Position numbers and translations under genes: made by a program. DNA of 64,000 nucleotides, from NCBI GenBank assembly GCA_030141605.1, contig JAQGDQ010000231.1, positions 124,001 to 188,000 on the forward strand, in the 5' to 3' direction. Numbering within the stretch: position 1 is the first letter of the stretch; every line of letters starts with the position of its first letter. This DNA is from Tubiluchus corallicola. Taxonomy: Eukaryota; Priapulida; Priapulimorpha; Priapulimorphida; Tubiluchidae. Under the pieces are notes generated by a model. The model worked only from the letters and a program-made list of their open reading frames with translations, was not told the origin of the DNA and ran no database searches. This document shows, in pieces, positions 15,409 through 53,464 of this stretch.

Positions 15409-16916
15409 TTATTATGTAAATTATAGAGCTATAAAAATTTTGATTATTGTAATTATAAATGAAATTTAATCTGTTTATAAATAAAAAGATAAATAGGATG
15501 TACTAGTGTTTCTTGTCTCCTGTTTTATCGATTTATCTAATTTATCGAGTTGATATGCTATTAAATACAATAAAAGTATCAGCATGTCTTTCCCTTTCTT
15601 GGTAAAAAAATTGGTAAAGCAGTTTTGAAATGCAGTAGTCATGTTGCTTTTCTGGCTGTGTAATAGTTTATAATTTTAATATTTACCTGTGCCAAAACAA
15701 CAAACAAACGCTGTAGTGTTGAACAATCTATTGTGTTAACGAATTCGTAATCATCATGAACTCACATCACGACAATAATACAAGGAAACACACTGCTTGC
15801 TTCAAAGTAAATAATTTTTACACTTCATTTTGTTAGAACTGTCTAAAATCAGCATGGAGGAAAAGTATAGATAGAACTGACTAATGCAATTATAGGGTAT
15901 GTTTATTCAAATAATAAACTGTTTTGTTGTACTGACGACAATTAGCTGTTTGACAAGGGTCTTAAATGAATGTCAAATGAAAAGATCAGAGAACTAAGAT
16001 TAAATTCTTCTAACAATAGCGTGGCATGTAGACTTTGTAAAGGTAAACAGTATGCTGATTATAGACCTAAATGCAAAAGTAACATGAGTCTCAAATTCAA
16101 AATTGAATTTTATTAAGTAATTATTACAAAGTGCAAACAAGCCTATATTGGGTTTAAAAAAAACTTGTTTAATCCTCCAAAATTGAAGTGCAAGGGAAAA
16201 ACTGTTTACATAATTATGCCCGTAAGTGCAAGCCTATTAAATTTTGCAAGAGATTTAAAGTTGTAAATCTTTTCTAGGCTGAATTAAGTCAAGCTCTTTT
16301 GAGCCTGTTTTCATATAAATTTATCCAAACAGCTTTGATTTGTAGTGAATCGAAATAGGTTTAACATCTTAAAAATAAGACAGTGCTCTACGGAGGGCAA
16401 ATTTCGTCTGAGGTAATTTGCTTCGGGCAATTTGTTGTAAAAATTAGCTTTATGATTACCTCATAATCGTACTACTTAAGCTCAAGTAGCGATAACACAA
16501 GCAATATAAGCATGCCTGAGTTGTCATCGTCTTTATTATGATATCGTATCATATGAGCTTAGAATGGCGCAATGAGTGGTATTCGGGCAAAACTGGTAAC
16601 TTGTATTACAATGATGGGTATAAAAATACATTTTAAAAATGGGATGTGTAAACCGGAAAATATACTTTTATTCTTGTCTTCATTGAGAAATAAAAATGAT
16701 ATTGTAGATGAAAAAAGTAACAGAACTCAAAAGAACTAATTGAGTTGTGTTGCTTCAAATATAAAGACACTAGACTCGAGATTGCCAGATAGGATGCGTG
16801 CTTTTCTGCATGACGTGGGAGTTTTCTAATGCTTTCATGAATTACTGCATAAATTTTAACATTTTCTGACGTATTTCCTGTCTTAACTGCATATTTGGCA
16901 CCATGGTGAAATGACA

Positions 16917-16954
16917 TTAACTATTCCTGTTTCGTCTGCGTTTCTTGCCCGCAC
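16917..16954 (-). CDS. candidate terminal coding exon of collagen A (basic tail)
   Basis: Read on the minus strand, acceptor ctttatctag is followed by GT GCG GGC AAG AAA CGC AGA CGA AAC AGG AAT AGT TAA. In phase 1, the phase left by the giant exon, this gives a Gly then AGKKRRRNRNS and stop. Block B has the same frame, stop and basic tail, and two of the three changes in the shared part are synonymous. A cluster of Arg/Lys after a collagen helix could be a processing or heparin-binding site; that is inference. The joining intron would be about 5.4 kb and other exons between may have been missed. Confidence 0.4.
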
Positions 16955-17699
16955 CTAGATAAAGAACAAAAGTTTTCAATTTTTGTTCTGAAAATAAAAA
17001 TGACAAAAGTGAATATTTAGAACAATGTCACAGACAAAGATAATATTAATCGTGAACGCCAGGATCATTCATCATGAGAGATGTTGAATTTTAATGGCTT
17101 ATGGCGTTACGATTATAGCACTGTGGGCCAAAGAAAACAATTTACGGACCTGGAGCACCTATCCATACTCGTGAATCAGAAATGGGGTAAATGGTCAACA
17201 TACTAAAACCAATGTGCAAACATGAAAAACATGTTGTGAAAAGATTGATGAGCACAAATTTATGAACATCATATTGTACCTGGAAAAGCACAAACATTCG
17301 AGCATGTAAAACTGAATGACAAGAAGTTCACAAACCGCGTACACTTAAACCATCCTATTCCAAGATGTTTAGTCAATCACATCTAAGAACACCTGAAATT
17401 GCAATCTCACATAATCTGCCATATGAACAATATGGGCAATGTGAGGCCCTGGGCAAGTGACCGTGTCAATGCTTCAAATGAAACCTGATCATCATAACAC
17501 GACTTGCTGCACAAAACTCAGTAATATCAAATTCTGTTAACCAAAAAAGGTTATGATGTGTGTGCCGTGTGGCTGCCGAGTGCTGGTAAATCTGTGCGTG
17601 TTCTTAGGATATTGCGTCATGACGTGAATAAAATCATTAAACTGTAAATTTACCGTGTCTTGTTTCACTAACTTTGTTTGCTGTACCGAGTGCTGAATA

Positions 17700-20600
17700 T
17701 TACACATTTAAGTCGTGTTTGTTACAGACTTATGTTTATTACAGATTTGTATTTATTATGTAATTCACATGATTAGCTAACTCGTTCTATCAGTCATTAC
17801 GTGGCTTTCTACCAGCTATAAGCATTATAAATAGTCAACAATATGTAGCATACTTTATCAGTCATTTCTGGGAACTCCGCCGTGATTTAGTCAAATTTAT
17901 CCTTACATTACGATGATTGCTTTTGCATTAGTTGATATAAATACCATGTAGTCTTTTATTAGGTGCCAACACATGACTAGTTGTGTTTCATATAATGCCT
18001 ACACCCGTTTGTTCATTAGCAGTTTAGCTGATATTTGCATTTCGACATTTGCTTATTTCAAAGAAAACGTTTGGTCATGTAAATACATTTTAACATATGT
18101 TCTCGTCGTCACTTTTTGATCGCACCACGACCATAATTTTTAGTTTGTTTCAGTCAAACTACGATCCCGCGGTTTTAAATGACCGCAGCTTCATTAACTT
18201 CCTCGGTTCTCCCACCCTCTCCTCTTAAATAAATTTTTAGTATTTTCAAATAGGAAAATATTTGCTCCATCGCACATTTAGTTAGTTTGTTTTTACGGTA
18301 ATCTCACGTCAGATTTCTTTTGGAATGTAATATTATAATCACAAAGTCTGTATTTTAACTAGCAATATAGACTTTACCTTCATCTGTATAGAATGTGTAG
18401 TGACAAAGCAAAACTGACGAGCTAAATGGGTTTGACTGTAGTAATTATCTCTAAGAAAACGATTAGTTATAGTTTTACCCGGAAGTTTTACAGAATTCAT
18501 TAAAATTCCATTAAAATTCTTCGACTTTACCAATTAATTAATTAGCTAATGAACACTAACGAATTCGTTAATTAAATGACTACTGATTAGGCTGTACAGT
18601 CCAGTCAAATTATGACCATCCCGTAAACTGATTGCAGCAAATCTTTTTTTGTACCTAGTGCAGAAAACATGATGATTCGCATACCAAAAATCGAAGGCGC
18701 AAAACTTGGTGGAAGATTCTCAAAGCTACTGATAACTGTCTGTTATTACCAAAAAACAGTATTAGGGGTAAAACTCCGTAAAATGTCGAAAGAAAACTAT
18801 AGTTTGCGTATACCATTTTGTTCAGGGACAGAGAAAACAATGGTTAGCATTTCTAAGATTATCAAAATATTTTAGAATGCTAAAAATGGAAATTATATCC
18901 ACCATTATAAAAAAGGGTTTTGCGTCGTAACTAAATAATAAATTGGCAAAATGTGGCCAACGTTGTATTAATATTTTTTAAGATAAATAATATGATGACC
19001 ATGTTTTAGTATAAGTAATATTTTCCCAGTGGTCACTATTATTTGCAACGGTAACTTACTAACTTTCAAGTACCATAAGAGCTAAATACAGAGATTGTTT
19101 TTAAAAAAAGCATACCCAGGGATAAGCATAACGTAATCCTCTGTTAATGCATACCTTTCATTACTTATTAAAAACAATTTTGACTTCTTTGGTTTCTCTT
19201 ATTTAGTTACTAATATTATTTATTAGTTATTATAATGCGTCTTAAGCCAGATTCAACTTTTAACACCTATCGAAGTCCACAAGTATATATTCACATGTTG
19301 GCCCAGTACACGTACTAGTGTGTGCCTTCATGCTATTTACATGTACTAGACTGTGTGTAGGCTAACTTGGTCCCGTGTCATCAGCATGCGTCTTCAAAGG
19401 CAATTAATCTGTGATAGGCTATTGTTAATACTGACGGTGAACCTCGGTACTAACGTTAGCCCCGTGATGTCTTCATTCGAAAGTATGCTGGACCAGTGGT
19501 AAAGTAGACATCGGCCAATTGGAAAGGTTACACATTGTGGCGACTCAAATTTCAAAATAAAAATCGGCCTGGTATTGGAACCAAAGCTGGCGTAACTATT
19601 TGCCCATATTCGACGTTGGACTGATGTTGCACTGATGAGCAGGCTGCCGACGCAAAGAGGCACACAGGGCCGACGTTGAGCCTACATTAGGATTGCCGCG
19701 CTGTCGTTAGCCGCAGTCAGGAGTCAAGAGCTAACTAGGGGCCTGTAAGGTCCCCCAATGAGGCCCGGGCAGAGCGCCAGAAACCAAACATTTCCTGCAT
19801 TGTAGATGTTTTATGAGGTATTTTCAGAAACTAAAATCAAGAAAATTTGGCTAAAAAGTAGTACAAATTCTTGGTTTCAAACTAAACAGAAAAAACGCCC
19901 GAAAAATCTAAAACTTTCAAAAGTGCAAGCAGTGTACATCAATTTTTGGAGTTTCTTCCCAGTTTTCTGGGATAGATTTAGCAGTCAAATTATTATGTAC
20001 TTTATGTATGTGAAGCAAAGCTAAAGCGGAAGAATACTTCCTTTGCTGTAGTTGTCGCTGCAGCAAAAATTGGCGAAAAATTTAGAAGGGGTGAAATGAT
20101 GAAGGCATGCGACCGATTATATTTAATTTTTAAAGTTTGCTGTTACCTAAATTAACAGACTTAGCTCTTTCTGGCTTAATCTTTTGTAAAGTGTCAATAG
20201 CAAGCAAGATGTATTTCCGCTGTTTTTTCCGCTTAAATTTCAATGTGGTGGTCGAAATCAGAAGATTTAAGAATTATTCTAAATCCGACCGAATTACGAA
20301 TCTATGGCTGAATTTCAGGAGACTCCGGGTCAAATTAAGCGTGGGGGCAACCCTAGTCTACATAAGAATGCTATCTTGGATGTAAGTGAATACAATCTGA
20401 TACAGTCCTCTATTTTGTCAATATAATTGGCAAACAGTACATTATACTTTATCCATTATCACAGGTACTTGGTAATTTTCCATTTAAGTATCAAATTTAC
20501 GTTAAAGCGACTTTGAACAATGAGAACTGCCTTTATACCTAAACCTATACTTGCTGATGTCTTCTACAAATTAACAGTGACGAATTCTGAAATAATCAAA

Positions 20601-20700
20601 GAATTAATGTTTGCCAGTTTCTACAATAAAAACATGCTAATAATACTAACTAACCAGAGATACAGGCTGATTTATAATAGTCATGTACAACTTATGGAAT
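17700..20700. other. extra sequence in block A, no gene recognised
   Basis: Most of the 3.7 kb by which block A exceeds block B lies here. At about 19390-19790 G+C rises and motifs such as cgacgttgga and ggccgacgttg recur, as in decayed palindromic repeats, but no ends or target duplication could be defined. Open frames on both strands are short, mostly overlapping and unlike known proteins. Confidence 0.4.
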
Positions 20701-20710
20701 AAGGTCTGCT

Positions 20711-21219
20711 CAGGGGCGTAGCCAGGTTCTAAAGTTAGTTGGAGCAAGCACATCAAAAAGGTGCCGTGACACATACCAAACAATTTTTAACGCATTGATT
20801 ATTACATTTTAATTGTTTAAAATCAAAACACAAAAAAGTTTTAAAGGAAGTATATAAATAACAGGTACATCGTTATTTTGTATTTAAAATTACATTACAA
20901 AAAAAAGTTAAATTAGCTTTGTGGCAATTTGATACTTGGTTCAATCAGTCAACCTTGACAAATGAATTGAGTAAATGCATGCTCATTTAAAAAACACGGG
21001 AGGCAGGTTGGTCAAATAAAGTAATGACTCCAAAAACTAGTTCTAGGGCAAAGCAATTAAAAAATAAAAAAGATTCCACTTTTATCGCACAAGTTAAGCG
21101 AAGAGTTGAAAAATTGTTGAAAAAGCACGAATTTTGAAAAAAATCGTTTGTGGGAGCGAATATTTTGAAAAAATATGCCTGGGGTTGTTCCCCTTGTTCT
21201 TCTGTTAGCTACGCCACTG
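20711..21219. mobile_element. probable hAT-type non-autonomous element
   Basis: The left end, CAGGGGCGTAGCCAGG, is a widespread hAT terminus. At 21206-21219 the sequence TAGCTACGCCACTG is the reverse complement of a close variant (CAGTGGCGTAGCTA). The candidate target repeat is ggtctgct on the left against ggctgct on the right, with one base missing. The interior has no transposase frame. Its right end was later caught in the 291-bp duplication described separately. Confidence 0.6.
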
Positions 21220-21628
21220 GCTGCTTTTTTAAATTCTTGACAAATGCCAACAAAATCACACTGAAAAGGTGCACGGTTGTCTTTCTTTCTCACTTAAAAC
21301 ACTACTCTGCACACCATAATTCTTATTTAAACCTTATTAGTTCTAGGGCAAAGCAATTAAAAAATAAAAAAGATTCCACTTTTATCGCACAAGTTAAGCG
21401 AAGAGTTGAAAAATTGTTGAAAAAGCACGAATTTTGAAAAAAATCGTTTGTGGGAGCGAATATTTTGAAAAAATATGCCTGGGGTTGTTCCCCTTGTTCT
21501 TCTGTTAGCTACGCCACTGGCTGCTTTTTTAAATTCTTGACAAATGCCAACAAAATCACACTGAAAAGGTGCACGGTTGTCTTTCTTTCTCACTTAAAAC
21601 ACTACTCTGCACACCATAATTCTTATTT
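21038..21628. repeat. two identical 291-bp direct repeats, 9 bp apart
   Basis: Copies at 21038-21328 and 21338-21628 appear identical by eye, separated by aaaccttat. Each contains the right end of the hAT-type element plus about 110 bp of flank, so the copying followed the transposon insertion. Identity implies a recent event or an assembly artefact. The frames they contain are present twice for the same reason and are not genes. Confidence 0.9.
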
Positions 21629-22398
21629 TGTTCATTTTTTCAGTTAAAATACTGTTACTAGCATATGCATGTAACTAGTTATAGTGACATTTAAAAAATA
21701 TTTTTGGTCATGGTAACAGCTTCGGTTGCAACCTTGAAAACATGCTCATCGTATTCTCTGACCTTAAAAACATGGGTATTGCCGTATTGGTACAACATTG
21801 GCCACATTGGGCACTTTAATATTTAATTGCATTGGAAACCACTCTTTGTGTAATTGCGGGCATATTTTTCATTTTAGGCATATTAGAAATATCACCATTG
21901 TTTTGTTTGGAGGGTAGACTCGTTTCCCAGAAATTTTTTCCAAGAGCCGCCATTTCTCAGAACATAAAATTCACAGAAAGATGAAGCGAAATGAAAAGTA
22001 GTTCATTTTAACTACGTGTATTGATTAATACCGATTGGATGATAAAAATTTGGTCAACTCATTAAGGCAAGAAAGTGTATTTGTAACGTCAGAACGATCA
22101 TAGTAGTGATCTTTGCATATGATTACTTAAACCCTTCTGCTGATGAGGTCTAATTGGCATTTACTGATTGTGTGTTACAAAGATGAAACCAGCATTTTGA
22201 GTTGAAAGCGGATAATCTCAATTGGCTTGAGCCCCTTAACTGTTTGTACTCAAGTACCACTTGGTAAACAATTCTGGACTGTCCCCTTTATTGAATAAAT
22301 AAGCATGAAAATGCCCAAATGGACAAGGTAATGCTTTGGATTTTGTATTGACTTTTCAGATTTTTACCAATTTATCGCATAAAATGTTGACATCTTAC

Positions 22399-24015
22399 CT
22401 TTATAAGGTCCATACGTGCCAGGTGGGCCAGGAATACCTGGTTTACCCGGTGGACCATGAGATCCAGGAGGACCCGGTTCTCCTGTCAAACCTTGAGGCC
22501 CTGGTAGACCCATAACACCGGGATCACCTTTGTCTCCCTTATCTCCTTTGTCACCTTTTGGACCTTCCGGGCTGGGCTCACCAGGCATGCCAGGTAGACC
22601 TGGTTCTACTCCATCTGTTCCATTTATCCCAGGTATACCAGGCCATCCATCTAATCCAGGAATTCCTACAAAACCTTGTGGGCCTCTTTGCCCAGTTAGG
22701 CCAGGCAATCCATCAAGTCCATCAAATCCCAGTTTGCCGGGATAACCTTTGTCCCCTTTATTGCCTCTGGGGCCAGGTTGTCCTGGAACTCCATCTTCAC
22801 CATCGTTACCATCCTCTCCAGGATCCCCCTTTTCGCCTATTTCACCTTTGTGACCTTTTCCACCTTTTTCACCTTTTAGTCCGGTTGGACCAGCTTGGCC
22901 AGGAGCACCTGGGGCACCTGCTTCTCCTCTTTCACCAGGAACACCAGGATCTCCTTGTTGACCATTTACTCCATCTACACCTGGTAGTCCAGTGCCTCCT
23001 TTGTCACCTTTATGCCCTTTTTCTCCTGGGTCACCTTTAGGCCCTTTATTACCAGGAGCACCAGGAGCACCTGGCGTTCCTGGTGAACCAGGTGCACCAA
23101 GATATCCTCTAGGACCCTCTAGACCTTGCGCTCCTACTGGTCCTGGCAGACCCATTGGTCCAGTTGGGCCTGGAGGCCCACCTGGTGGTCCAGAATGTCC
23201 ATATGGTCCCATTAGGCCAGGCCGTCCTCTCCAACCTTTTGGACCAGTAGGACCACTTGAACCTAAATATCCAGTTGGTCCCGGTGGGCCAGGTGGACCG
23301 GTTACTGCTACTCCACGTTGCCCTATGCTACCCTTTGCACCTGTAGGACCAGTTTGGCCTTTAGATCCTGGTGGTCCTGCTGGACCAGGTGGACCTGTTA
23401 CATCTGCTCCAGACGGTCCACTTAGACCTTTTGGACCCGGCGGACCTGCTGGGCCTGTTACATCTGCTCCAGGTGGTCCACTCGGGCCAGTTGGGCCTGA
23501 AAGACCATTTGGGCCTGTAGATCCTGATGGTCCTGGTGGACCACGTGGACCTGTTATATCTGCTCCAGACGGTCCATTTTGACCTTTTGGACCCGGAGGA
23601 CCTCGTGGGCCTGTTACAGTTGCTCCAGGTGGTCCAGGTGGACCTGTTACATCTACACCAGATGGCCCACTTGCACCACTTGGACCCCAAGGACCACGTG
23701 GGCCTGTTACAGTTGCTCCTGGTGGCCCAATTGGTCCACTTCCGCCTGAAGGACCAGGTGGTCCTGGAGGTCCTGTTGACCCCATTAAACCAGGTGGACC
23801 TGCTACAGTTGCTCCAGGTTGTCCCTGCACACCTTTTGGGCCTGGAGGACCAATTTGTCCTGTAGCTCCCGGTGGACCAGGTGGGCCTGGTATTATAGCA
23901 TTTCCGGGTGGCCCAGGTGGACCCTGCATACCTTTAGGACCTCGACGACCTTTAGGACCCCGCATTCCTCGAGAACCTGGTTCGCCGGGTGGTCCAGGCG
24001 GACAATGTACACAAC
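22399..24015 (-). CDS. collagen A, giant triple-helix exon
   Basis: An exon of 1617 bp (539 codons), phase 1-1. On the minus strand the acceptor is gtgctacag and the donor GTAAGA after AAA G. It starts [10 protein letters not shown], a two-Cys knot able to cross-link chains, then runs as Gly-X-Y almost throughout to [11 protein letters not shown]. The first half has eight G4G interruptions of the pattern G-x-x-V/I-T/A-G (ATVTG, VDVTG, ADVTG and similar) and one G5G (GNAIIPG). The second half is charged ([11 protein letters not shown]) with few breaks. It holds GVPGER, similar to integrin-binding GxOGER sites, and an NGT sequon. The product is predicted to be secreted or membrane-linked extracellular matrix, not fibrillar type (no COLFI domain seen). 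Signal peptide and 5' exons were not identified. Block B holds its paralogue. Confidence 0.93.
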
Positions 24016-24499
24016 CTGTAGCACAAAACACATCATTATTACTATCATCTTCAATTTGATGATCTAAAATGCTCTGAATATGTCATAAATTGCAACTAAA
24101 GATGAAAATAGATCTTACATTTGAAATTACAAATCATGGGTGCTGCAAAAATACGCGTCTTGCCTCATTGTTGCACTGGCTTCTGCACTATAAAGATGCC
24201 GCCGCATTTTATTACTTTCCCGAGTAATTTTAATACTTTCTTTAACATTGTACTATATAATAATCTTTCACAGCCATGCATGGGCTGAGAAAACAGAAAC
24301 CTGCTTCACTGTTATCGTCGCTATAGTCGGGGACCTGTGCTAGATTAGTAAACTCATGACCTTTGCTGCTAGGTTATCTGCAAAGCACTGTAAACTCTTT
24401 CACTAAAGTCCTGGAGTAAAACCGCAGCACAAATACAAATCGTGCCTTTGTCCAACTTAGAAGTTTTTAATAACTGTGAATAATTTCACTTCATCTCTC

Positions 24500-27400
24500 T
24501 TACCTTTGAATTATGATTCTATCTAATGTAATGTAACCCAAATCATCTAAGAGAATTTGTTTATCTTGTTCAGTTAGTTTTCCGTTTGTGTAAAATGACT
24601 TCATCGGGGATATTAAGGTCAGGAGTAGCAGGTCGTTTTCAAACGTAACCGTCATTTTTTGAACTTTTTTGAACACAAAAGAGTCATTAGCAATCTGTGC
24701 TGTGTACATGTTAACAACGCTCTATGTGTATTAAAAGACAAATTTATAATCTGTTTCAATTTCAATTTAACACAACCAGAATAAATGATTTTGCTTTTCT
24801 CTGTAAAGCAGACGTTTGCCCAGCAATCCATCGCAAAAGCTCATTTCAAGGTTTCGGAATGAGATAAACAATGAATCAAAAATGACTCACTGAATACAAA
24901 AATTTAAAAAGAAATATAAAGCATTTATTTTAAAATAAACAACTACACTTCCTGATATCACAGTACGTCACAGATCTGTACTGCAGTACAAATTTTTGCT
25001 TTTATGCGAATATTGGGTATAGGTGACACGATATTACTGTTAAGCGTTTATAGCATAACATCGTGTTTTTCTTTAAAATTGTGATGAACGTGACTCTTTA
25101 ATGCAGTGTCGCTATATAACTATCAATAGTGTGCCTGAAATGACCTGGCGAGATAAAGTTTAAATGCGCTGTTGACAACCCTATTCAACAAGCTCCACAA
25201 AGATCATAGCAGCTTTAATCCACTTTTAAAATCTGCAAAATGAAAGATTCTGTCGATAAAACAAGTGTGTGCATGCAAGGTCAGGTTTCCTGTGCCTCTT
25301 TAGTACAAATATGCCTTAAAAATGAATTAAAAACCTATAACGAGTAAGGCTACTGGGCTGGACAGATTGCTTGAAACGTGTTAAAACCCACAGCTGATAT
25401 TCTAGCACTGCCCTGGCACTTCATAATAAGCCGCACAATTATCTTGTAACCGACGACATTTTGACAACTTAAGAATGTAATTTTAGACCCTAGTCACTTG
25501 TGCTTCCGATAACTGGTTAACCAATAGACCTAGTGCTTTCGAGAACTGGTTAACGAATAGACCTAGTGCTTCCAACAACTGGTTAACCAACCTGCACAAT
25601 GGCTTTCTAACTGGTGGACTTAAAAAGCATTTGACCATGTTAATCATAAGATGCAATCGCAAAAAGCTAGTTAACACTCTCCAGCTGCTGGTTCTGCTCA
25701 TATCTCATAAAGGACAACAATTTGTAAGTCTAGAAAGAGTCAGTTCCATTTTTGCCTATCATTAGTCAAAACATTATTACATTGTCATTACATATATAGA
25801 ATAGGATTACAAATGCTTAGATCACCTTCAAGAGATGTACAAAATTAAGCATGGGCTAAACACAAAAATTGAAGATAGCTCCTACGCAATTAATGCAATT
25901 CTTGCAGAATGTGCAGCAGTGAAGAGTGTTGCAATGCTGCATTGCTTTATTGGTATAGTGCAAAAATTCTGCTGATTGTGTGTATTGGATAAATGCTGCA
26001 AAACTTATTGACAGTAACAAATGAAATGTTGGCAGAGATTATAGAAAAATTCAAGTTTCTGACAGTTGTTAGTACTATCATCATCGTTATTATTAAAGAA
26101 GTATCGTTACGAGATGGAAACATATTATGCAGGCGCCCTACCATTTGAGCTTTTACTGATTTATTGGTGACTGATCCTCGTAATGCTCACTTTGTCCGTA
26201 TAACTTGATGAGCTCTTCATAAGTTCAACCAGCAGTTGATTTAAAAGTCTTATACCCTTTTTTTAATTATTACTATGCTTTAACTTTTATTGTACTATTA
26301 AATGCAAGTCTCGGTCTAGGACCAGAGTTTGTGTTACATGATTAGCATTACTTGTTTTGGCATAAACCTATTTTCAAACTCTCTTGCTGTTCTTATGCTA
26401 TAGCCAAGCCATGATGCTAAGAGTAAATAATTGTTCATTCTGGTGTATTTGGTGAACAACAAAAGGTGAGTGCGCAAGCAACAGCGCTGAATAACAACGT
26501 CCGCTATACAGAAAAGAATGTTGCGCGCAAATAAGCAATTAAACAAGTTAATGGTGAGGCAAGTAGACACGAGCTTGAAAAACTAATTGGCACACCATCG
26601 CCTCCTTTACTTGAGTTAAGAAACTGCGATTTCCAGAGATAATCAACAGTAGCTGATTATTAATTCAATAAAATTCTGCAAAAGTGGTTAGCATAATTAT
26701 AATTATCAGTTTACAATTTCCAAGACCACGCACAGATAGAGAAACTTGTCAAAAAAGAACAAAACGTTGAAAACAGCTCACAGTGCAAACGTACCTATTG
26801 ATTTCAGTGCATTTTATTATATCCCAATTCAGCATACCACGCAATACCACGCCTAGTTAAATATAAGGAAGTTGAAATGAAACCATTACTGTACATTACA
26901 ACGTACTGTTAAACCTGTATTGATTTTTTTGTCTTCCTTTCACTTATACTGTAAATTGAGTGTCCCTGTTCTGAAAGTCTATTCATATAAATGTGATAGT
27001 AACTAAAACCATAGGTGTTATTTAGGTATAGTTTTCACTAAATTTTCTTTTGGACTCTTAAGCTTATTTATCAAACTCAGACTTTTCGCAGAACAGGCGT
27101 GGTACGTTAGTTCATTGTCAATGTTGGTCAAGCTCTTTGAACTGAATTAGATGAAGAATCAAAATCTATTTTGTTATCACGGAAATTCAAAAATAAATAC
27201 AAAGCTAACATGTTCAATTAGTAATTCGCCCTAAAACATCTGTTGCAGCTGCTGTATCCACCTATTATCACCACGACTATTATCAATAAATATAATTTAT
27301 ATATATATGGTAAGAGTACAGCATCTATCACAGCATACACCACCCTTTTCTTCTCCTTAACTCTTCGTACTAGTTTTCTTTCAAATTTTATTACTAACTT

Positions 27401-27600
27401 TGCTTTTTTCTCCTTTTATTTCAGAAAGCTTTTAAAGCTCTCGGCTTCTTCAGTTTTCTGCAGGACAATTAGCTAGGACCCCAACATGTAAGTTGTAATT
27501 AAAATCATTTTAATTATTTAATTATTTTGTATTATAATTTTATTATTCTATACGTTTTGTACTGTTGTGCTGGATGTAGAAAATAAATTACAAATTACAA
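24500..27600. other. spacer between blocks A and B, no gene recognised
   Basis: AT-rich sequence in which the 5' exons of collagen A would be expected on the minus strand; none could be supported. A 69-codon frame ending at 24500 is followed by a plausible donor, but it is in phase 2 and cannot join the phase-1 collagen exon. A 33-bp minisatellite lies inside. Near 27540-27600 the sequence gctggatgtagaaaataaattacaaatta looks like the 3' end of an old LINE. Confidence 0.4.
25497..25594 (-). repeat. 33-bp minisatellite, three copies
   Basis: Units of the type 'cctagtgctt..gaactggttaacgaataga' occur three times head to tail with a few substitutions. As 33 is a multiple of three, the minus strand reads an 11-residue repeat (LVNQLSEALGL-like) inside a 72-codon frame. 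The frame has no other support, so the in-frame repeat is probably incidental. Confidence 0.7.
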
Positions 27601-28552
27601 CTTAATAGCTGTGAACATTATTCCCTTAAGGCATATACATGCGTACACTACATGAAATAACAGGCATAATAAAATTTATGCTAAAATCTCTAGCAATGTC
27701 GGATTCAGATTTAATCAAAAGTCATATAATAGAGATTAGTCGTGATCCCACAATCGGTCATAGACATTTCATTCGAGAATTACTGGCTTCTAGTGGACAA
27801 TATTTAAAATTGTGTAAAAATTATCATTCACGTACTATTGATTACGGTAATATACCGCTGAATATCCTTGAGTACAAAAAACAGGATATTGGACATTTTA
27901 TATCACACCTATGGAAAAATAGATGCCGTGCTCGCTACCAATGCCAGGAGTTATCTATTCTTCCTGGAAATGTATTTTTAACTCCACGAGACCTTCCTTT
28001 TCATACAGGTAGCAGAAGGCTAGAAAAACTATCTTGTAGCATTTTACTAGGACAAGGTAACTTTAAAGATTTTCTTTTTAAAATTGGATACATACATGAA
28101 AATGCCTGTATCCGTTCAGAGGAAGCACAAACAGTTGAACATTTGCTTTTTAATTGTACTCTGGTCGATGAAAATAAAAGATTAGCGCTTGCAAATATCC
28201 TACAGTCCCAGAACATTAGTAAAATTTATACATCTCGTGACAAAAACCTGCTAGATGCTTTCTCTGAGTTAGTTTGTGATTCGTTTTTACAAACTTTAGC
28301 ATAAAATATTGAACTTTTATATTATATCTGTTTCTAGTCTCTTTTACATTATACAGGTCGTTTTGTGTAAACTGGTACTATTTGATTTTAGTTGTTCTTT
28401 TATTGGTATATCCGTGATTTATTGGTATATAAAAGTGTTACGAATATAACAGATATTTTATTTACAAAGTTTTTTTAACTTTTAACCCTACCCTGCAAAT
28501 AGAGGGTCACTGTATGTATTTTATTTAAAGAATTATAATAATAATAATAGGT
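27600..28552 (+). mobile_element. 5'-truncated non-LTR retrotransposon with (AAT)n tail
   Basis: Contains the C-terminal part of a LINE ORF2, then a 3' region with accctgcaaatagagg and tgtatgtatttta, ending in (AAT/ATA)n at about 28527-28552. The minus-strand LINE at 50 kb has the same 3' words, the same kind of tail and the same C-terminal domain, so the two belong to related families. The 5' end is missing, as is usual for incomplete reverse transcription. Confidence 0.75.
27639..28304 (+). pseudogene. LINE ORF2 C-terminal domain
   Basis: A 221-codon frame beginning inside the protein. Landmarks are LSCSILLGQGNFKDFLFKIG and a zinc-binding-like C/H segment ending EHLLFNC, then a short helical end. 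These match the part after reverse transcriptase in the LINE at 50.2-50.6 kb (TFLTGQGNFNDFLFNIGY, HHLLFEC). The frame is open over this part, so the copy is less damaged than the other, but endonuclease and reverse transcriptase are missing. Confidence 0.75.
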
Positions 28553-28597
28553 ACGAGTAACTTCGTAAACTTCATAAAGCTTCATAATGAAGCATTG

Positions 28598-29125
28598 GAT
28601 AGGCATTTACACTGGGAAACTGCCGACACAGTAACAGAACATTTTATTCGACTCTCCCAATTAGGGAAACATTTGTTGTAAACCCCAGAAATTTTAAACT
28701 GCTGTTTCCCTGTTTTTTCTTCGTGAAATTGAATGCAGCTTTTAATGCTGACGTCTACGCATGCCTACCAAGGGCATAGCAGAGTCCGAATTTCTGTTTT
28801 ACCCTATGGAGATCGGGAATGATAACTTCTACAGTTAGAAAAACATGCTGAACATTCATAAAAAGCGATCAGATCGCGGACAAATCTGGTAGGCACATAC
28901 GCTTAGGAACTATCCGGCAACACAGTAATGGAGAGCTTTTCTGAACCATTCCCTTTTTCAGGGTATACTTTTTGGGTAATCCCAGAAGATTTCAAAGTAG
29001 TATTTTTCCGCCATTTTTTCGCCAAATTGAATGCGGCTTTCGGTGCTGCTGTCTATGCATGCGTACCAAGGGTGTAACAGGACCTCACACAGCGTCAAAT
29101 TTGGATTCCTCCCCATGAAGTGTTA
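28598..29125. repeat. diverged tandem duplication, about 290-bp unit
   Basis: Stretches from 28598 (aggcatttacac) and 28889 (aggcacatacgc) share a series of words in order: gacacagtaa/caacacagtaa, aattgaatgcagcttt/aattgaatgcggcttt, and gcatgcctaccaagggcat/gcatgcgtaccaagggtgt. Identity is clearly below perfect. No protein frame. It lies between the truncated LINE and block B. Confidence 0.65.
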
Positions 29126-29709
29126 CCTACTTTGTAGTCAATAATTTTTACATTTTATTTTGTCGCACTTGACGAACCACAGCATGAATGGAACACTACA
29201 AATGAAATATGATTATAATGGGCTTTATTGCTAATGTTAATGATATTGTTAATTATTTACAAATGATTGTCTTTCAACTATATAACAAAGTTGTGCTAAC
29301 GACAATGAGCTGTCTGACAAGTCGTCAAGTGAAGACGTCAGAGAATTGATATTTTCTAGTTATAGCATGGCATGCAGACATTTAAATTTTATTTGATATA
29401 TATCATAATAAACGATTTAACAGTAACATTATGTTGTGTGGTGTGCTAGAATTATTAGCAAGATATTTGTGTGCTTCAATATTTAAAAATAGAACATAAA
29501 ATAAAAATTAACCAGCAAACAATGAATTGGGCTAGACCCTTTCAACATTTCCAGGCAAAGTAATAGGTTTTGTTTGATCGCAAAACAAAAGAAAAAGTCC
29601 ATACTGCTAAAGTAATGGTTTACAAAGAACGAAAAAGCAGCAATAAGCAAAAATTTCACTTTAAGTGCTACAAAATGGCGGTATCGCCAAAGGTCTTTTT
29701 ATTATTACC

Positions 29710-29760
29710 GAAATAATAATAATAATAATAATAATATATATATATACCGCCCCATATATA
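29710..29760. repeat. (AAT)n and (TA)n microsatellite
   Basis: aataataataat followed by tatatatata, directly before the large pentanucleotide satellite region. Simple repeat only. Confidence 0.8.
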
Positions 29761-29914
29761 TGACAATCGCCCGCATAATTGAATATCTTAGCGCAAATAG
29801 CTTGTTGTATTCAACTATTCGAGTTACTTATTTTTATGTAAAATTTATGATGTGGCTAAACTAAAGGTTTAGTTTAATATCTTTGTTTATTGTGTTATAA
29901 TTATATTGTGCTGT

Positions 29915-30345
29915 ATTAATTGTATTGTATTGTATTGTATTGTATTGTATTGTATTGTATTGTATTGTATTGTATTGTATTGTATTGTATTGTATTGTAT
30001 TGTATTGTATTGTATTGTATTGTATTGTATTGTATTGTATTGTATTGTATTGTATTGTATTGTATTGTATTGTATTGTATTGTATTGTATTGTATTGCAT
30101 TGCATTGTATTGCACTGTGTTGTATTGTATTGCATTGTATTGTATTGCATTGCATTGCATTGTATTTTATTTTATTTTATTTTATTGTATTGTATTGTAT
30201 TGCATTGCATTGCATTGCATTGCGTTGCGTTGCGTTGCGTTGCGCTGTGCTGGGCTGCGCTGCGCTGCGCTGTGCTGCGCTGTGCTGTGCTGTGCTGTGC
30301 TATGCTGTGCTGTACTGTACTGTACTGTACTGCACTGAACTGTAC
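29915..30345. repeat. TATTG pentanucleotide satellite with drifting composition
   Basis: About 86 pentamers. The left part is uniform TATTG. The right part passes through CATTG, TTTTA, CATTG, CGTTG, CGCTG, TGCTG and TACTG units while the 5-bp register is kept. Because 5 is not a multiple of 3, all frames of each strand read repetitive peptides (YCIVL-type or NTIQY-type), so the several long frames here are not genes. Confidence 0.95.
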
Positions 30346-31635
30346 AATTGTACTGTGCTGTATTCATCAGTAAACTGATTATCATTACATCACCAAGGCG
30401 AAAGCACCATAACAACAAAGTATAATTCTAATTTGGTTTGTCTTTTGATATTTTTAATTGAGTTAATTACCGATTACGATTAAGTACCACGTTTACATTT
30501 GACTTGTCTAAGTCACATTTCACTTACCAAAACATATTTGAAATTTTTGTGTCTAAACTTGACTTACCTAAGTCATATTTGAACTTACTAGTTATTAGTA
30601 AGGAGAAGTTACTAGAGCCAAGAACATGATCCAAACCACGGTGGTAACTTGAAATAAAAATCAACTTAACGAGTACTCCATAATTTTATTACTTAAGCTC
30701 TAATAATGTTGTCGTCGTGAACGACCGAAAATCATAAAAAATACATTATAATTTCCAATTAGATGAATAACCTGTAAAACCGCTGTTACTGTAGTAGATG
30801 TGGCTTCTATCGATCTGTTACCTATTCTAAAAATGTGCTTAACCTAATGGTGAACGTCTTGCTCTAGTTTTGATATATTCTATACTACTACTTGGTTGTT
30901 ATAAGATATTATATGCGGATATCTTTTTACCTATATTTCTGTTGAAACTTCTACATCAATAAAAGTTTAAAGTGTATTCGATTGTTATACCTTTTGTCAA
31001 TACGACAAATGTAAAACGTGCAAGTTAAGCTGGAAAAGTAGTCATCATTCCTATTATATAACATCCACACATAATTCCTTGGATTGATGTAATGAGTATA
31101 CTGAATTATTACGATAATGCAGCATAAAAAATTACTTTTTAAAGTTGGGATGCCGAAACCGAAATGCATTTTAATTCTTGATCTCACTGAGAGGTAGTTC
31201 GCATTAGTAATTACAACATTTTTAATGTCGCAAACTGCTGTGCTCCTTTGCTGCTTTGGCCGTCATTTAATTGTAATTTGGTTGTTAATAAGCTAATAAT
31301 AATCCTAAAAATAATAGAATTCACGTGTTATCCAAATGACCCAAAAATGAATAATTACGTATGTATGTACAAAATATAGAAGGTATATTAATGGTGTCTA
31401 AAAAACGAAATGCTAAAAAGATTCATAAATAAAAAATACAGGAGTAGCAGAACCTAAGAGAACAAGCTGCAACGTGTTGTCCCAAAGGAAACACTTATGC
31501 ACGAGACTGCCAGACTACTATGCTTTAGCACCAGTGTGTAACTTTTTAATGGTTTAATGACTACATAGAACATTTTTCACGTTTTCTGACGTTTTTCCTG
31601 TCTCCTGGCGTATTTGGCAACACGGTGAACGGAGT

Positions 31636-31664
31636 TTAACTGTCTCTGTTTCGTCTGCGCTTCA
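31636..31664 (-). CDS. candidate terminal coding exon of collagen B (basic tail)
   Basis: The block B counterpart of 16917-16954. In the same frame the minus strand reads TG AAG CGC AGA CGA AAC AGA GAC AGT TAA, that is VKRRRNRDS and stop when joined in phase 1. The acceptor used in block A (ctag) is changed to cttg here, so block B would need the nearby cgggag as acceptor, or this copy is no longer spliced. The intron to the giant exon would be about 1.76 kb. Confidence 0.33.
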
Positions 31665-33427
31665 CTCCCGAACCAAGATAAGGAACTAAAGTTTTCAATT
31701 TCGGTTCTGAAAATAACAAAATGGTAAAAGTGAGTATTTAGAATAATGTCACAAACAAAGATAATATTAATCGTGAAAGTCAGGGCATAAGAGCGATGTT
31801 CATGGCTTGTGGCGTAATGATCATCAGGGTAATCTTAACAGCATTGTAAGTCTGGCCAAAGAATTAACGGGGCACTTATCCAAAAATGTAAATGGTTGGC
31901 ATACTTAAACCAATGGGTCTAATGTGCAAACATAAAAAACATGCTGTGAAGGGAGGATTGGTGAACACATAGCTATGAAAAACATAATATGCCTAGAAAA
32001 GCACAAAACACACATCATACAGTTGAACCATGCAATGACCACAGGTATTTAGTGACCTAGAATTATCTAAAAACACCTAACAAATTGTAATCTGACAATC
32101 TCCTATATGAACAATATGGCAACTTCAGGCTCTGGGCATGTGGCTAGTGCGCCCACATTTTAACATGACCTTCATCATCATGACAAAGCTTACTATACAA
32201 AATTAGTATCAAACTGATGATTCTTTTGGTTGTTGAGCGCTGCTAAATTAAATAAAGGCACCACATTAACATTTTCTTTCATATTTTGAATAAAACGTAA
32301 AATCTCTTGTTTCAAATATTTTCGTAATTATAAAGACAACAAGAAAAAAGCGAAAATAATTTTGATAACGTAGCGGAAAGTTGCATTTCGCGATTTAAAT
32401 ATTTCAAGTAGCATTTCATTTATTTTAAATATTAGTCATAATAAAATAAAAAGTTCTAAAAGTTTATAAGCAGAACATTTTACAGAAATGACCATTCTAT
32501 AAAAAAGCTCTGCAGGTCATGAACAGCAGGCGTTGCAAAAGGTCCTGTAATTTCATGGTTTCCGTGCGATACCAAAATAAAGATCCTTTAGCAGCACTAC
32601 CCCAGCTGCTGTTCAGAACAGATTTTTGGAATGCAACTGTCAGCAGCTAATCATAAAATATGGAAACAGAAATAATTCGGTATTTTCTATAGGCTTAAAA
32701 TTTATTATAAGCCTATAATTGCTGGGCGATTCCCCTAGCTAATCAGCACGTTCTACAGTTCATTAACTTACATTGCTACCTATTAGCAGCAGTTATAAAT
32801 ACTAGTCTGCTACGTATGTAGTTTGTCAGCTATTTTTGAGAGCACAAGATCGCCACTATGATGCTTGTTTTTGCGTGACAGCAGTATGATTATTGCTAAC
32901 CTTTTTCATTAGGTGCTTAACACATTTGTAGTTTAGTTATGAAGTTATACGACCACCAATTCATTAGCTATGAGTATCAAAGTTGATTTTTTTTGTTTAT
33001 ATACACAGTGTTTGTAATGAAGTAATTATAGGTCCCCATTTACATTAAATTTTATTATATTAAGATACTGTTGATCATTACAATAAGCGATAAAGTGTAT
33101 TAATTTCTGATGTTCAGCTAATTAAATGATTAGCTAGACCCTTCTGTTTGTGAGCACTAATTGGCATTAACCGATTCTGAGCCACAAGGATAAAGACAGC
33201 AATTTCAGTTAAGACAGAATAATTTCAAAAGCGGCTTGAGCTCTTAAATGTCTCGTATTCAAATTCCTACTTGGTAAACAATTCTTTACTGTACAATTCT
33301 TCTCCACACTACCACTTTGTTGAACAAATTAAACCTGAAAATCGCTAAATGGACAACATAATTTCTCGGACTTCGTATTCAATTTTCGTATTTAAGCCAT
33401 TTATTGAGTAAAATGCTAAAATCTTAC

Positions 33428-35038
33428 CTTTATGAGGTCTGTATGTGCCAGGTAGCCCAGGAATACCTGGTTTACCTGGTGGACCATAAGATCCAGGAGG
33501 ACCTGGTACTCCTTTCAGACCTTGAGGTCCTGGTATACCCATAAGACCGGGATCACCTTTGTCTCCTTTATCTCCTTTGTCACCTTTTGGACCACTTGGG
33601 CCGGGTCCACCTGGCATGCCAGGATCACCTGGTCCTCCATCTGTTCCATTTATACCCGGTATACCAGGCCATCCATCTAATCCGGGAATTCCTGGAAAAC
33701 CACGTGGACCTCTTTGCCCAATTAAGCCAGGTAATCCATCAAGCCCATCAAATCCTGGTACTCCAGGATAACCCTTGTCTCCCTTCTCCCCCTTGGGGCC
33801 TGGGTATCCTGGAGTTCCATCTTCACCATTTTTACCATCATCTCCAGGATCCCCCTTTTCACCTCTCTCACCTTTGTCGCCTTTTTCCCCCTTTTCACCT
33901 CTCTGTCCAGCAAGACCATGTTGGCCAGGAACTCCTTGGGCACCGGTTTCGCCTCTTACACCAGGAAGACCAAGATCTCCTTGTTGACCATTTACTCCAT
34001 CTACACCTGGTAGTCCAGTGTCTCCTTTGTCACCTTTATGCCCTTTTTCTCCTGGGTCACCTTTATGTCCTTTATTACCAGGAGCACCAGGAGCACCTGG
34101 CGTTCCTGGTGAACCAGGTGCACCAGGATGTCCTTTAGGACCCTCTAGACCTTTCGCTCCTACTGGTCCTGGTGGTCCTATTGGTCCAATTGAGCCTGGA
34201 GGTCCATCATATGGCCCAGGAGGTCCAGGTGGTCCAGGTGGTCCAGGCCACCCTCTCCTACCTTTTTGGCCTTTAGATCCACTTGGGCCTGAAAGTCCTT
34301 CTGGTCCAGATGGACCAGGTGGGCCTGTTACAGTTTTTCCAGGTCGCCCTTGTCTACCTCTTGGGCCTTTAGGACCACTTGAGCCTCTGCGTCCTTTTGG
34401 TCCAGTTGCACCAGATGGACCTGCAACAGTTAACCCAGAAGGACCACTTGGACCGGTAAGACCCATAGGACCTGGTGGGCCTGTTACTGTATTCCCAGGT
34501 GGCCCACTCGGGCCATCATCACCTGTAGGACCTGGCGGGCCTGTGGGACCTGGTGGGCCTGAGGGACCTGGTGGGCCTGTTACTGTTTTCCCAGGTGGCC
34601 CGCTCGGGCCATCATCACCTGTAGGACCTGGCGGGCCTGAAGAACCTGGTGGTCCCGGAGGACCTGGTGGGCCTGTTACTGTATTCCCAGGTGGGCCAGA
34701 AGGGCCATCTGGGCCTGTTGGACCTGGTGGACCAGGTGGACCTGTTACAGCTACTCCTTCTGGTCCACTTGGACCAGATGGGCCTGGAGGACCTGGTGGA
34801 CCAGGTGGGCCTGTTGACCCCTGTGGACCAGGGGGGCCTGTTACAGCTACTCCAGGTGGCCCTGTTGCTCCCCTTGGACCAGGAGGACCAGTTGCTCCGG
34901 TAAATCCTGGTGGACCAGGTGGGCCTGTTACATCATCTCCAGGTGGTCCCACGCCCCCCTTCATACCACGTCGACCCATGGAACCTGGAGGACCTGGTAC
35001 TCCTGGAAGCCCCGGTTGTCCAGGTGGACAGTCGCATG
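33428..35038 (-). CDS. collagen B, giant triple-helix exon
   Basis: An exon of 1611 bp (537 codons), phase 1-1: acceptor ttgttttcacag, donor GTAAGA after AAA G. It begins with a split Ala codon, then [12 protein letters not shown], another two-Cys start, and is Gly-X-Y to [11 protein letters not shown]. As in paralogue A there are eight G4G breaks of the form G-x-x-V-T/A-G in the first half (DDVTG, VAVTG, NTVTG, KTVTG), plus one GPYDG break. A 96-bp unit near 34500-34690 is directly repeated, showing growth by in-frame duplication. The GVPGER of A reads GLPGVR here. The second half is charged and very close to A ([14 protein letters not shown]). Non-fibrillar collagen; likely 5' exons lie at 44.4 and 45.7 kb. 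Confidence 0.93.
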
Positions 35039-35639
35039 CTGTGAAAACAAAACAAAAAGCCAAATAAATGGTAACGCAATTATTATTATCTTTAATTTAA
35101 TAACAACAGCTTAATGATGAGGAATATGTGAACCTATATTGATTACCTGAGAATGTTGATATATCCCAATAAAATGCTCTGAAATCGACATCCTTTGCAA
35201 GTATAGGTTAAAAGATAGCTCTCGCGTGTGGAATCACAAAATCCTGTTTACTAGGTGGGTGCTGCAAGAATACGCTTCCTGCTTTATTATTGCACTGCAC
35301 TATGAAGACGCTGCGGCATTTTATTTCTCTTCTGAACGTATTCGCTTTAATATTGAAATAGCCACACAATAATCTGTCACAATCAATGCAGTAATAGAGA
35401 GGTCTGTTTCACTGTTATCATTGCTGTAGCCAAAGCTAGCTTAGGAGACGCATAAAGACGCATGATCTTTGCAGCTAGGTTGTCAGTAAACTGCCAGGGT
35501 AAGGTCCCAGCACAAATGCATGTCCAACTTAGAAAGCTTCTCCCAATTGCTGAGAATATTTTTTGTAAAATTAGATTAAGATTGAGATTATGATTTTCTT
35601 CTATTTGGCTGATTTGCATAACTTGACATGAATTATATA

Positions 35640-42746: not shown

Positions 42747-42943
42747 TAACTCTAATTCTAATCCTAACCCTAATTCTAACCCTAACCCTAATCCTAACCC
42801 TAACTCTAACGCTAACCCTAACCCTAACTCTAGCCCTAACTCTAACTCTAACCCTAGCCCTAACCCTAACCCTAACCTAACTCTAACCCTAACTCTAGCT
42901 GTAACCCTAACCCTAACCCTAACTCTAACTCTAACCCTAACCC
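42747..42943. repeat. interstitial telomere-type array, (CCCTAA)n degenerate
   Basis: About 33 hexamers, mostly CCTAAC with variants TCTAAC, TCTAAT, GCTAAC and CCTAGC; the minus strand reads TTAGGG. All frames of the array read LTLTLT-type peptides, which is why long frames occur here. It lies wholly inside the hAT element. Confidence 0.92.
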
Positions 42944-44375: not shown

Positions 44376-44471
44376 CAGGAGGACGAAACAATTCTGGGTC
44401 AGCCAGTTCAGGAAATAAAATAGGTAACCGTTGTAGTAGCATGTTTCTTTCTATTGTAACTGGATCGTTTT
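44376..44471 (-). CDS. putative 5' exon of the collagen B gene (non-collagenous)
   Basis: A 96-bp exon, phase 1-1, with strong signals: acceptor actgttttttttag and donor GTAAGT. It reads NDPVTIERNMLLQRLPILFP then ELADPELFRPP, with the final G of the exon starting the next codon. Joined to the giant exon at 35038 it gives ...RPP-A-CDCPPG; joined upstream to the 45.7 kb exon, ...QPP-E-NDP. Family unknown; it resembles a short linker between an N-terminal domain and the helix. The intron to collagen B would be about 9.3 kb and includes the hAT element and LINE debris. Expression is untested. Confidence 0.5.
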
Positions 44472-45729: not shown

Positions 45730-46035
45730 CAGGAGGTTGCCTATCAGGCTGCTGAAGAGTAACCCCAGAAAAACTTGGGTCTCCATTTACCATAAGAGCA
45801 GGATTATCTTGTTGTCCGTTAGCAGGATCTAGCATAAACGTTTCTTCGTTTCTTTGTTGCTGTTCTATGGCGTCATCTTGTAGCTGAGTCTGTATTGGCA
45901 TTTCTTCAGTTCCACTCGAAAATGAAAAAACTGGGTGATTGTACGGAATATCATCGAAACTTAACTGTTGTTGTTCATCCAAAAATATCAAGCGCTCACG
46001 TTCTTCATCTGATTCAAAACCCTGATTAGAACCAC
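45730..46035 (-). CDS. putative 5' exon of the collagen B gene (acidic/Gln-rich)
   Basis: A 306-bp exon, phase 1-1: acceptor ataattactgtag, donor GTAAGA. It is read as GSNQGFESDEERERLIFLDE, then a Gln-rich region with QQQLSFDDIPYNHPVFSF, DDAIEQQQRNEETFMLDPA and DPSFSGVTLQQPDRQPP. It is acidic, Gln/Asp/Glu-rich, with no Cys and no transmembrane segment, so it is likely an N-terminal non-helical domain. Phase and the PP|G-type end match the 44.4 kb exon. Upstream exons, including any signal peptide or membrane anchor, were not found. It could instead belong to a separate minus-strand gene. Confidence 0.55.
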
Positions 46036-47604: not shown

Positions 47605-48177
47605 ATGTGGGCATGTAGACTACGGCCAAATCACGTTGAAAACACCGGTTCTGGTCTGATCACCGAAGATAAGCAACGTAGAGCCTGGTTAGTGCTTGGA
47701 TGGGTGACCACCTAGGAATACCAGGTGCTGTAGGCTTGCGGGATGCCCACACTGTATCTCGACACTAGGCGAAGGAGCTGGACAAGCAGCCAACGGCTAT
47801 AGGGCGGAGGAGGTCAAGTGACCCAACGGCCTTGTGCAGAGGAGTAAACCTTCCAAATCAGGAGTGGAGCCCCGAAGGCGGACCAGTGCAGCATGCTCAC
47901 TGACTCCGGCAGCTCCTGCGGCCAACCTGGTTTCCAAACGTATCGCTCCGCTTTCCTTTGGACTACATCAGCGATGAAGAGAGGGGGTTCCTGTTGTCTG
48001 GGCAACTCAGGATCTCCATACACCTTGCCCAGGCGTGCGCCCTGGAGACGTTCAAGGATCGCACTGCTCAGCCACAGTCGCGGCTGCAGCTCCATCAATG
48101 TGATCAATAACTGACTCTCTTGGCGCACACTCCATTGTCTTCCGAGACAGAAGGATGCCAACCATGTGGGCATGTAG
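47605..48177 (+). mobile_element. 5S rRNA-derived SINE-like element with 14-bp target duplication
   Basis: Identical atgtgggcatgtag copies at 47605-47618 and 48164-48177 flank a 545-bp insert within a GTAG microsatellite. The insert begins with a 5S rRNA-like head (47618-47738) and continues into a GC-rich body of about 425 bp with no similarity I recognise and no poly-A tail. A 5S head plus unrelated body is the structure of SINE3-type retroposons, transcribed by RNA polymerase III from the internal 5S promoter. Alternatives are a stray 5S repeat unit with its spacer, or a segment of another gene fused to 5S. Confidence 0.7.
47618..47738 (+). pseudogene. 5S rRNA-like sequence (promoter head)
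   Basis: Starts ctacggcc and keeps acgttgaaaacaccggttct, ctgatcaccgaag, taagcaacg, gcctggttagt, cttggatgggtgacc, ggaataccaggtgctgtag, in the order of metazoan 5S rRNA. Box A (agataagcaacg), the intermediate element and box C (ggatgggtgacc) are close to consensus. No T-run terminator follows the 3' end, so transcription would run on into the body. Several stem positions appear changed, so it is unlikely to be a working ribosomal RNA. Confidence 0.85.
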
Positions 48178-48590: not shown

Positions 48591-49291
48591 GATATAGGTA
48601 ATTGTAGATATAGACAGTAAAATATTTAAATATTTCAATGTTTCAAATTTTTAGTTTAAGTGTTGTTATCTTTGTTTGTATTAAGAACATATACTGTAAA
48701 ATTGTATTGCTGAGCGAATAAATAAATATTTAAATACGTGTATCAAAGTATATTATTGTACGAACTTTGGTCGATTTCGCCTCCGAGTTGTGCTTGCACG
48801 ATTCCGAATAGAGAAGGTAGAATTAAAATTAAAACTCGGCGTTGCGCTACTCCCATCATCGTGTTAGAATGGCTATAAAAAGGAAATGCAAAATAAAAAA
48901 TAATGATGATACTCTTTTAGCAAACATGTACGAATTGAATCCCATTTATTGACCAACATAATTTGTAGTTAACAATTACAAAATCGTGTCTCGGAGTAAC
49001 ACATTATGCTCGACGTAATTATATTGGTCCAAGTCAGATAGTGTACGTGCAATCATCATTAATTAATCAGTTAGTACTTTACAACGTAAAATTACCAATA
49101 TAGTATAATATATCAGAGCTGCAGCTAGAATTAGCATTGTTGTGACTAAAAACTGGTTGCAAACTCTTAAAGTTGTTGGACGATAAAGGTATTCCAGCTA
49201 AACGACTTCCGATAGAGAGCACTCACATATTACATGAAACTCGGACTGAAATGGCGAATTCACGCCATTACAGAAACATATCCTGTTTTGT

Positions 49292-53383: not shown

Positions 53384-53464
53384 ATGTTTATCACTGCTTG
53401 TTATTATGAACGGTTAAGACGATTCAGCTCTTCTACGTATCTTGGGCAACTTTTCTCCCATACT

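Follow-up and report, generated by a model that had tools for sequence, protein, structure and literature searches.

Two one-exon collagen helices in tandem in a priapulid worm: two genes, or one gene with alternative triple helices?

Introduction

A 64,000-nucleotide stretch of the genome of the priapulid Tubiluchus corallicola, referred to here as the window (positions 124001 to 188000 of contig C1803 in an assembly of 343.5 Mb and 2344 contigs), carries on its minus strand two very large collagen exons that form a tandem duplication. The question raised by this locus is whether the pair represents two neighboring genes or a single gene with two interchangeable triple helices. The initial annotation had posed it on the basis of the exons, their phases and the duplication, all of which are borne out here. 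The choice itself is finely balanced. From the sequence, our tentative preference is for one 5' side serving two alternative 3' helix modules, a reading that is placed only marginally, and nominally, ahead of two ordinary genes.

Results

Both helix exons were found intact at the coordinates, strand and lengths first annotated (Table 1). Each is free of stops, is bounded by GT-AG sites and at either end splits a codon behind its first base (phase 1-1). With a slash marking the exon boundary, the acceptor and donor are ...tttgttttcacag/CATGCG and CATAAAG/GTAAGA in copy 1, and ...gtgctacag/GTTGTG and TATAAAG/GTAAGA in copy 2, where the pyrimidine tract of the acceptor is poorer. Both exons match the Pfam Collagen family PF01391 (E 1.9e-74 for copy 1, 2.6e-71 for copy 2) and belong to the collagen superfamily, although the figure of about 180 Gly-X-Y triplets initially given for each proved too high; a strict parse yields 160 and 157, because G-4-G breaks interrupt the first halves. 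These breaks are regular in the N-terminal halves, eight in copy 1 and nine in copy 2, and 16 of the 17 are of the type G-x-x-V/I-T/A-G, the remaining one being a G-5-G in copy 2. The first half of the helix is a series of Gly-X-Y blocks, mostly closed by a five-residue break of the G-x-x-V-T type. Nine triplets plus a break, or 32 residues (96 bp), is the commonest block length (7 of 15 blocks), and a 96-bp period was among those reported by a tandem-repeat finder. The second half is charged (KGDKGD) and consists of 84 unbroken triplets in copy 1; in copy 2 it is broken twice, at GVEPG and GEPSPEG, neither of which occurs in copy 1.

Table 1. Coordinates of the collagen locus within the window
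Feature	Position	Strand	Details
Predicted first coding exon, signal peptide MMGVAQRRVLILILPSLFGIVQAQ...	48766..48859	-	scan, sites, homology
Non-collagenous acidic/Gln-rich exon	45730..46035	-	306 bp, phase 1-1, open frame, AG/GT sites
Small non-collagenous exon (NDPVTIERNMLLQRLPILFPELADPELFRPP)	44376..44471	-	96 bp, phase 1-1
Duplicated unit, copy 1	30643..35490	-	outermost aligned bases of blastn blocks
Helix exon, copy 1	33428..35038	-	1611 bp, 160 Gly-X-Y triplets, eight G-4-G breaks
Low-difference helix stretch (helix 1 vs 2)	33981..34160	-	7/180 bases differ; 1 silent difference in 54 codons
Terminal coding exon, copy 1, EPKLKTLVPYLGSGVKRRRNRDS-stop	31636..31706	-	ATTAAA at 31558 and 31550, AATAAA at 30690
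Duplicated unit, copy 2	16426..24384	-	outermost aligned bases of blastn blocks
Helix exon, copy 2	22399..24015	-	1617 bp, 157 Gly-X-Y triplets, 538 codons without a stop
Terminal coding exon, copy 2, EQKLKTFVLYLGAGKKRRRNRNS-stop	16917..16987	-	AATAAA at 16672

The duplication starts in the intron that precedes the helix, continues past the stop and, as had been proposed, includes the flanks: non-coding blocks on both sides of the helices align by blastn at 62-73% identity. These blocks pair 35490-35170 with 24384-24065 (66%), 33427-33126 with 22398-22119 (70%) and 32208-31729 with 17523-17008 (64%); there is also a 37-base piece, and past the stops come three more blocks (62-73%) that end at 30643 and 16426. 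For the 5' exons of copy 1, no partner was found elsewhere within the window. Among the helices compared, the two copies are each other's nearest relatives, at 69.5% identity over 541 aligned positions, against 60-64% to the family members L015, L020 and L021 described below; L010, L009 and L022 gave more bits than these three, over longer alignments, at 46-54%. The intron comparison and a five-sequence tree agree in placing copies 1 and 2 closest to each other. One stretch of the helices (33981-34160) is a possible gene-conversion tract, having unusually few silent differences (windowed permutation of silent sites, P 0.006; a Fisher value of 6e-6 was computed after the stretch had been picked), while the longest identical fourfold run, used as a test of gene conversion, was not significant (P 0.24).

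In copy 1 the helix is preceded, on its own strand, by a signal-peptide exon and two non-collagenous exons, all joinable in phase 1. They are situated 9.3-13.8 kb before the helix, a distance greater than the 7.6 kb that separate the first stop from the copy 2 helix. The single upstream donor first annotated, 44376, stands, and further 5' exons are now added at 46.0 and 48.9 kb. The predicted first exon encodes a hydrophobic N-terminus that is signal-peptide-like by hydropathy; its phase-1 donor is weak (CAAA/GTTCGT) and an acceptor lies 13 nt before the ATG. In favor of a real exon is its homology to a family signal-peptide exon at ~165.3 kb of contig C1958 (window 48919-48788, 65% identity, E 7e-8), which extends over upstream non-coding bases as well. 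The C1958 exon encodes MMLRKPRWLVLTFVLFSAPGIVQAQ; it precedes the family helix found at C1958:150 kb and has a close relative at C1770:21 kb. The two non-collagenous exons have no second copy in the window, nor did a search of the whole assembly find one; the only other genome match (E 0.6) is close to a frame that we take to be Wee1-like.

The signal-peptide exons of L031, L020, L010 and L022, and less clearly those of L014 and L025, likewise have an AG-type acceptor close ahead of the ATG (0-13 bases). This perhaps reflects spliced-leader trans-splicing, or an intron of the 5' untranslated region that stops where the start codon begins.

Each helix is followed by its own terminal exon and stop, encoding a basic tail of 23 residues, 17 of them identical between the copies. 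Starts at 31664 and 16954 had been annotated for these exons; 31706 and 16987, directly after ...ttattttcag sites, fit better and leave frame and stop unchanged. With a terminal exon and stop for each copy, the simple alternatives are copy 1 plus tail or copy 2 plus tail. The last intron of copy 2 also holds a 300-bp tandem duplication (21038-21628) which, since its matches are 100%, is either very recent or an assembly artifact.

Both copies look functional and similarly constrained, judging from the absence of stops, similar branch counts and the loss of a single glycine. Over the 244 codons of the second half, synonymous divergence (dS) is 0.25 and nonsynonymous divergence (dN) 0.11. The glycine codons shared there, 79 pairs in all, are identical or differ only silently. 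All 531 aligned codons give dS 0.41 and dN 0.22; for the first half alone, where the alignment is uncertain, the values are 0.56 and 0.33. When second-half changes were assigned to branches using three outgroup helices, silent/replacement counts were 13/20 for copy 1 and 11/20 for copy 2 (31 more changes were unassigned), with branch lengths of 0.078 and 0.072. No glycine was lost there in copy 1 and one in copy 2, at a break absent from copy 1. Constraint is moderate, not extreme, as the X and Y positions would lead one to expect.

The breaks of the two helices also fall in register. With positions counted back from the C-terminus of the helix exon, every one of the eight copy 1 breaks has a copy 2 break within 3 residues, and 8 of 9 do so in the reverse direction (P 0.003 and 0.02 under two nulls, both of which ignore shared ancestry). 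Shared ancestry may account for much of this match, and selection for co-assembly could be reflected in it. Blocks are sometimes more alike within a copy than between copies (blocks 1.4/1.5, 0.91; blocks 2.5/2.7, 0.90; between copies at most 0.78), which suggests rearrangement or homogenization after the copies split.

Large exons holding a whole helix are not peculiar to this locus. The pair had been described as unlike the classical collagens, which is true, but one-exon helices occur family-wide in this genome. A PF01391 search of the assembly scored 150 of 364 candidates, so that family counts are lower bounds: besides the two in the window there are at least 20 open collagen frames of at least 220 amino acids, on at least 14 contigs (C1770, C2099, C1162, C1328, C1958, C1152, C2311, C1901, C842, C1903, C1472, C1504, C1887 and C2243). 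Twenty stretches of ~10 kb each, covering 19 of the 20 frames (all but that on C1887), were fetched, and all hold a collagen frame, 19 of at least 220 amino acids and one of 180. The family pattern, into which the window helices fit, is an acceptor, then C-x(1-2)-C-PPG or a variant (CRCRPG, CDCPSG and CHPCPSG in some members), then the whole helix in one exon. Some of these loci are probably alleles or recent copies of one another: long blocks of DNA are shared at ~90% identity between C1770:30 kb and C1958:150 kb, and the pairs C1770/C2099 and C1472/C1504 are alike by eye.

The loci at C1770:30 kb, C1958:126 kb and C1958:150 kb resemble the window in having one large helix exon, with 60-64% identity in the helix, and the C-x(1-2)-C-PPG start is found in many family members. 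Signal-peptide exons, where they were located in the family, are of phase 1. They differ in their shorter frames (266-277 amino acids), in having one early break against the eight and nine of the window, and in a stop inside the helix exon. The window's non-collagenous exons had no match in the bases fetched around these three loci, and besides the signal peptide we recognized no exon common to the window's 5' side and C1958/C1770. In the C1958:126 kb helix (L020) the stop (GACACGTATTGA) falls slightly short of where the window has its donor, and the start of the intron is still recognizable; the terminal exon appears to have been lost there.

A signal-peptide exon was found upstream of 8 of the 20 fetched helices. 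Those of L010, L022, L023 and L020 are mutually homologous, those of L021 and L015 are homologous to the window's, and those of L025 and L014 are candidates by hydropathy only. In the other 12, no trusted exon was found in the sequence searched, mostly ~4-5 kb upstream. The distance to the helix is ~14 kb in L021 and ~9.5 kb in L015, and 0.4-1.8 kb for the others found.

Copy 2 was searched for a 5' end of its own. In the 7.6 kb that separate it from the first stop (24016-31638), no convincing signal-peptide exon was found by homology or by strict or relaxed scans. A scan requiring an acceptor gave one candidate, opposite an open frame resembling a long interspersed nuclear element (LINE); the relaxed scan gave six, none like the family signal peptides; and the best homology match (30651-30598, E 0.28) lies beside the duplicated 3' flank, with a stop soon after. 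As first exons of copy 2 we discarded the MNNYLLL... frame at 26.4 kb, which has a good acceptor and by eye no phase-1 donor, and the frame at 24655 (MTVTFEN...), which has no acceptor. A frame at 41605 (MVKSAILIITAATLYQ), in the copy 1 intron, has a low-scoring donor and makes only a weak alternative first exon. These searches are insensitive: the strict scan misses the known L010 exon and is prone to chance hits, with 10 on the plus strand of the window against 6 on the minus strand, one of which is the true exon, and true signal-peptide homologues (window versus C1958) reach only E ~1 in the homology search. Since 12 of 20 relatives are equally without a trusted exon, the failure to find one ahead of copy 2 carries little weight.

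Discussion

We lean, cautiously, toward a secreted non-fibrillar collagen gene whose 3' module, helix plus terminal exon, was duplicated in tandem with both modules remaining functional. Copy 2 would be expressed via the single 5' side, comprising the signal peptide at 48.9 kb and the non-collagenous exons at 46.0 and 44.4 kb. Donor 44376 would be spliced either to 35038, giving copy 1 with its own stop and poly(A) site, or, with copy 1 skipped, to 24015, giving copy 2 with its own stop. This would yield two chains that share an N-terminus, differ in their helices and could co-assemble; we infer the use of the signal-peptide exon, its sharing by both copies and the co-assembly. A partial duplication that kept the old 5' side would explain both the unduplicated 5' exons and the failure to find an exon before copy 2, without calling for a new promoter, and the long and similar constraint on the two copies argues that copy 2 was never orphaned. 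A more specific version, for which our confidence is lower, is that the helices are interchangeable and register-matched, with the choice of splice or poly(A) site setting the composition of the trimer.

Several observations weigh on the other side. Signal-peptide exons or candidates lie 0.4-1.8 kb before the helix frame in L010, L014, L020, L022 and L025, and three of these, L010, L014 and L020, are downstream members of tandem groups. By that pattern copy 2 would be a gene of its own. The insensitivity of the signal-peptide searches again makes the missing exon a weak argument, any duplicated 5' exons could have diverged or been lost, and the poorer pyrimidine tract of the copy 2 acceptor would be a handicap if the two acceptors compete.

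Two ordinary tandem genes are nearly as probable, copy 2 having its own promoter and a short, diverged signal-peptide exon spliced directly to the helix, as at C1958:126 kb. There L020, tandem downstream of L021, has its own exon ~1.7 kb upstream; this exon joins the helix in phase 1 and has homologues in L010, L022 and L023. L010 likewise lies downstream of L011 (C1901), and on C1903 the farthest downstream of three helices, L014, has its hydropathy candidate 1.1 kb upstream. That each copy has a terminal exon, a stop and poly(A) signals of its own fits this explanation too, as do the 12 relatives in which no trusted exon was found. It is countered by the blank result of homology and scans over 24016-31638 and by the neighbor's non-collagenous exons, which had no second copy in the genome search.

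It is improbable that the second copy is only a partial duplicate that lacks a 5' side and is silent or in decay. Such a fate would accord with the lack of a 5' exon and with the two second-half breaks absent from copy 1, one of them with the lost glycine; however, relatives break the helix near GVEPG too in the alignment, and 538 stop-free codons, similar branch counts and just one glycine lost in the second half speak against it. When drift of the full exon was simulated, with substitutions as the sole kind of change and rates of 0.05 and 0.10 per site, a mean of 17 and 33 glycines were lost and 12% and 1.8% of runs stayed free of stops. Least probable is a double-length chain with the helices in series (33428 to 24015), which the phase 1-1 exons permit, as initially annotated along with skipping and inclusion, but which must bypass the well-formed terminal exon 1 and would leave the copy 2 C-V-H-C motif in mid-chain (in relatives, serial joining would not show within the ~10 kb fetched).

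Fibrillar collagens have an uninterrupted helix and a C-propeptide domain; here the helix is interrupted, and the predicted C-terminal tails match no C-propeptide domain in Pfam. Nematode cuticle collagens form large families of secreted proteins with few introns and with cysteines flanking an interrupted helix, but they carry a cuticle-collagen N-terminal domain, whereas Collagen is the only Pfam match of the predicted chain over its first 213 residues. Spongin short-chain collagens are non-fibrillar, interrupted invertebrate collagens that end, in contrast to the window's tails, in a domain related to the NC1 of collagen IV; the tails of the linked exons gave no Pfam match to NC1 (C4) itself, though more exons, not linked here, may exist. 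Large collagen exons are also described in the collagen IV genes of the ctenophore Mnemiopsis, where they range from 40 to 4867 bp (PMC5395295). Those chains have a C-terminal NC1 domain, in contrast to the short basic tail predicted here. The MACIT type membrane collagens are described as type II transmembrane proteins with a short cytosolic N-terminus (PMC4678570).

A literature search, covering titles and the beginnings of abstracts for part of the matches, turned up no whole-helix swap by splicing, and a search for VTGPPGPPG gave no match. Collagens usually diversify through separate genes and small in-frame exons, and we know of no case in which a whole triple helix is exchanged by splicing. 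If copy 2 uses the common 5' side, such an exchange would be a splicing decision; otherwise the locus would be an ordinary tandem pair within an expanding family. The many collagens with the whole helix in one exon would mean that helices behave as single movable modules.

Other features of the window

On one side of the collagen locus lies a plus-strand gene (exons near 2.6 and 12 kb) that we take to be phosphatidylinositol 4-kinase type 2, a label for which Pfam gave no support with the single exon tested. On the other side is an epimerase exon at 61.9 kb, also on the plus strand (PF01370, above cut-off). A minus-strand open frame (49292-49687) ends just before the collagen gene and has matches to BRICHOS (E 4e-4) and DUF5648 (E 6e-4), both below cut-off. 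By the look of their frames, 50175-54686 (minus) and 27630-28304 (plus) are remains of LINE-type retrotransposons, with weak zinc-knuckle and zf-RVT matches below cut-off. An internal telomere-like TAACCC/TTAGGG array occupies 42747-42943 (33 units, 83% matches). A full-length 5S ribosomal RNA match (47618-47736, plus strand, 99 bits), adjoining GTAG tetranucleotide arrays, lies within the collagen intron that separates the signal-peptide exon from the acidic/Gln-rich one.

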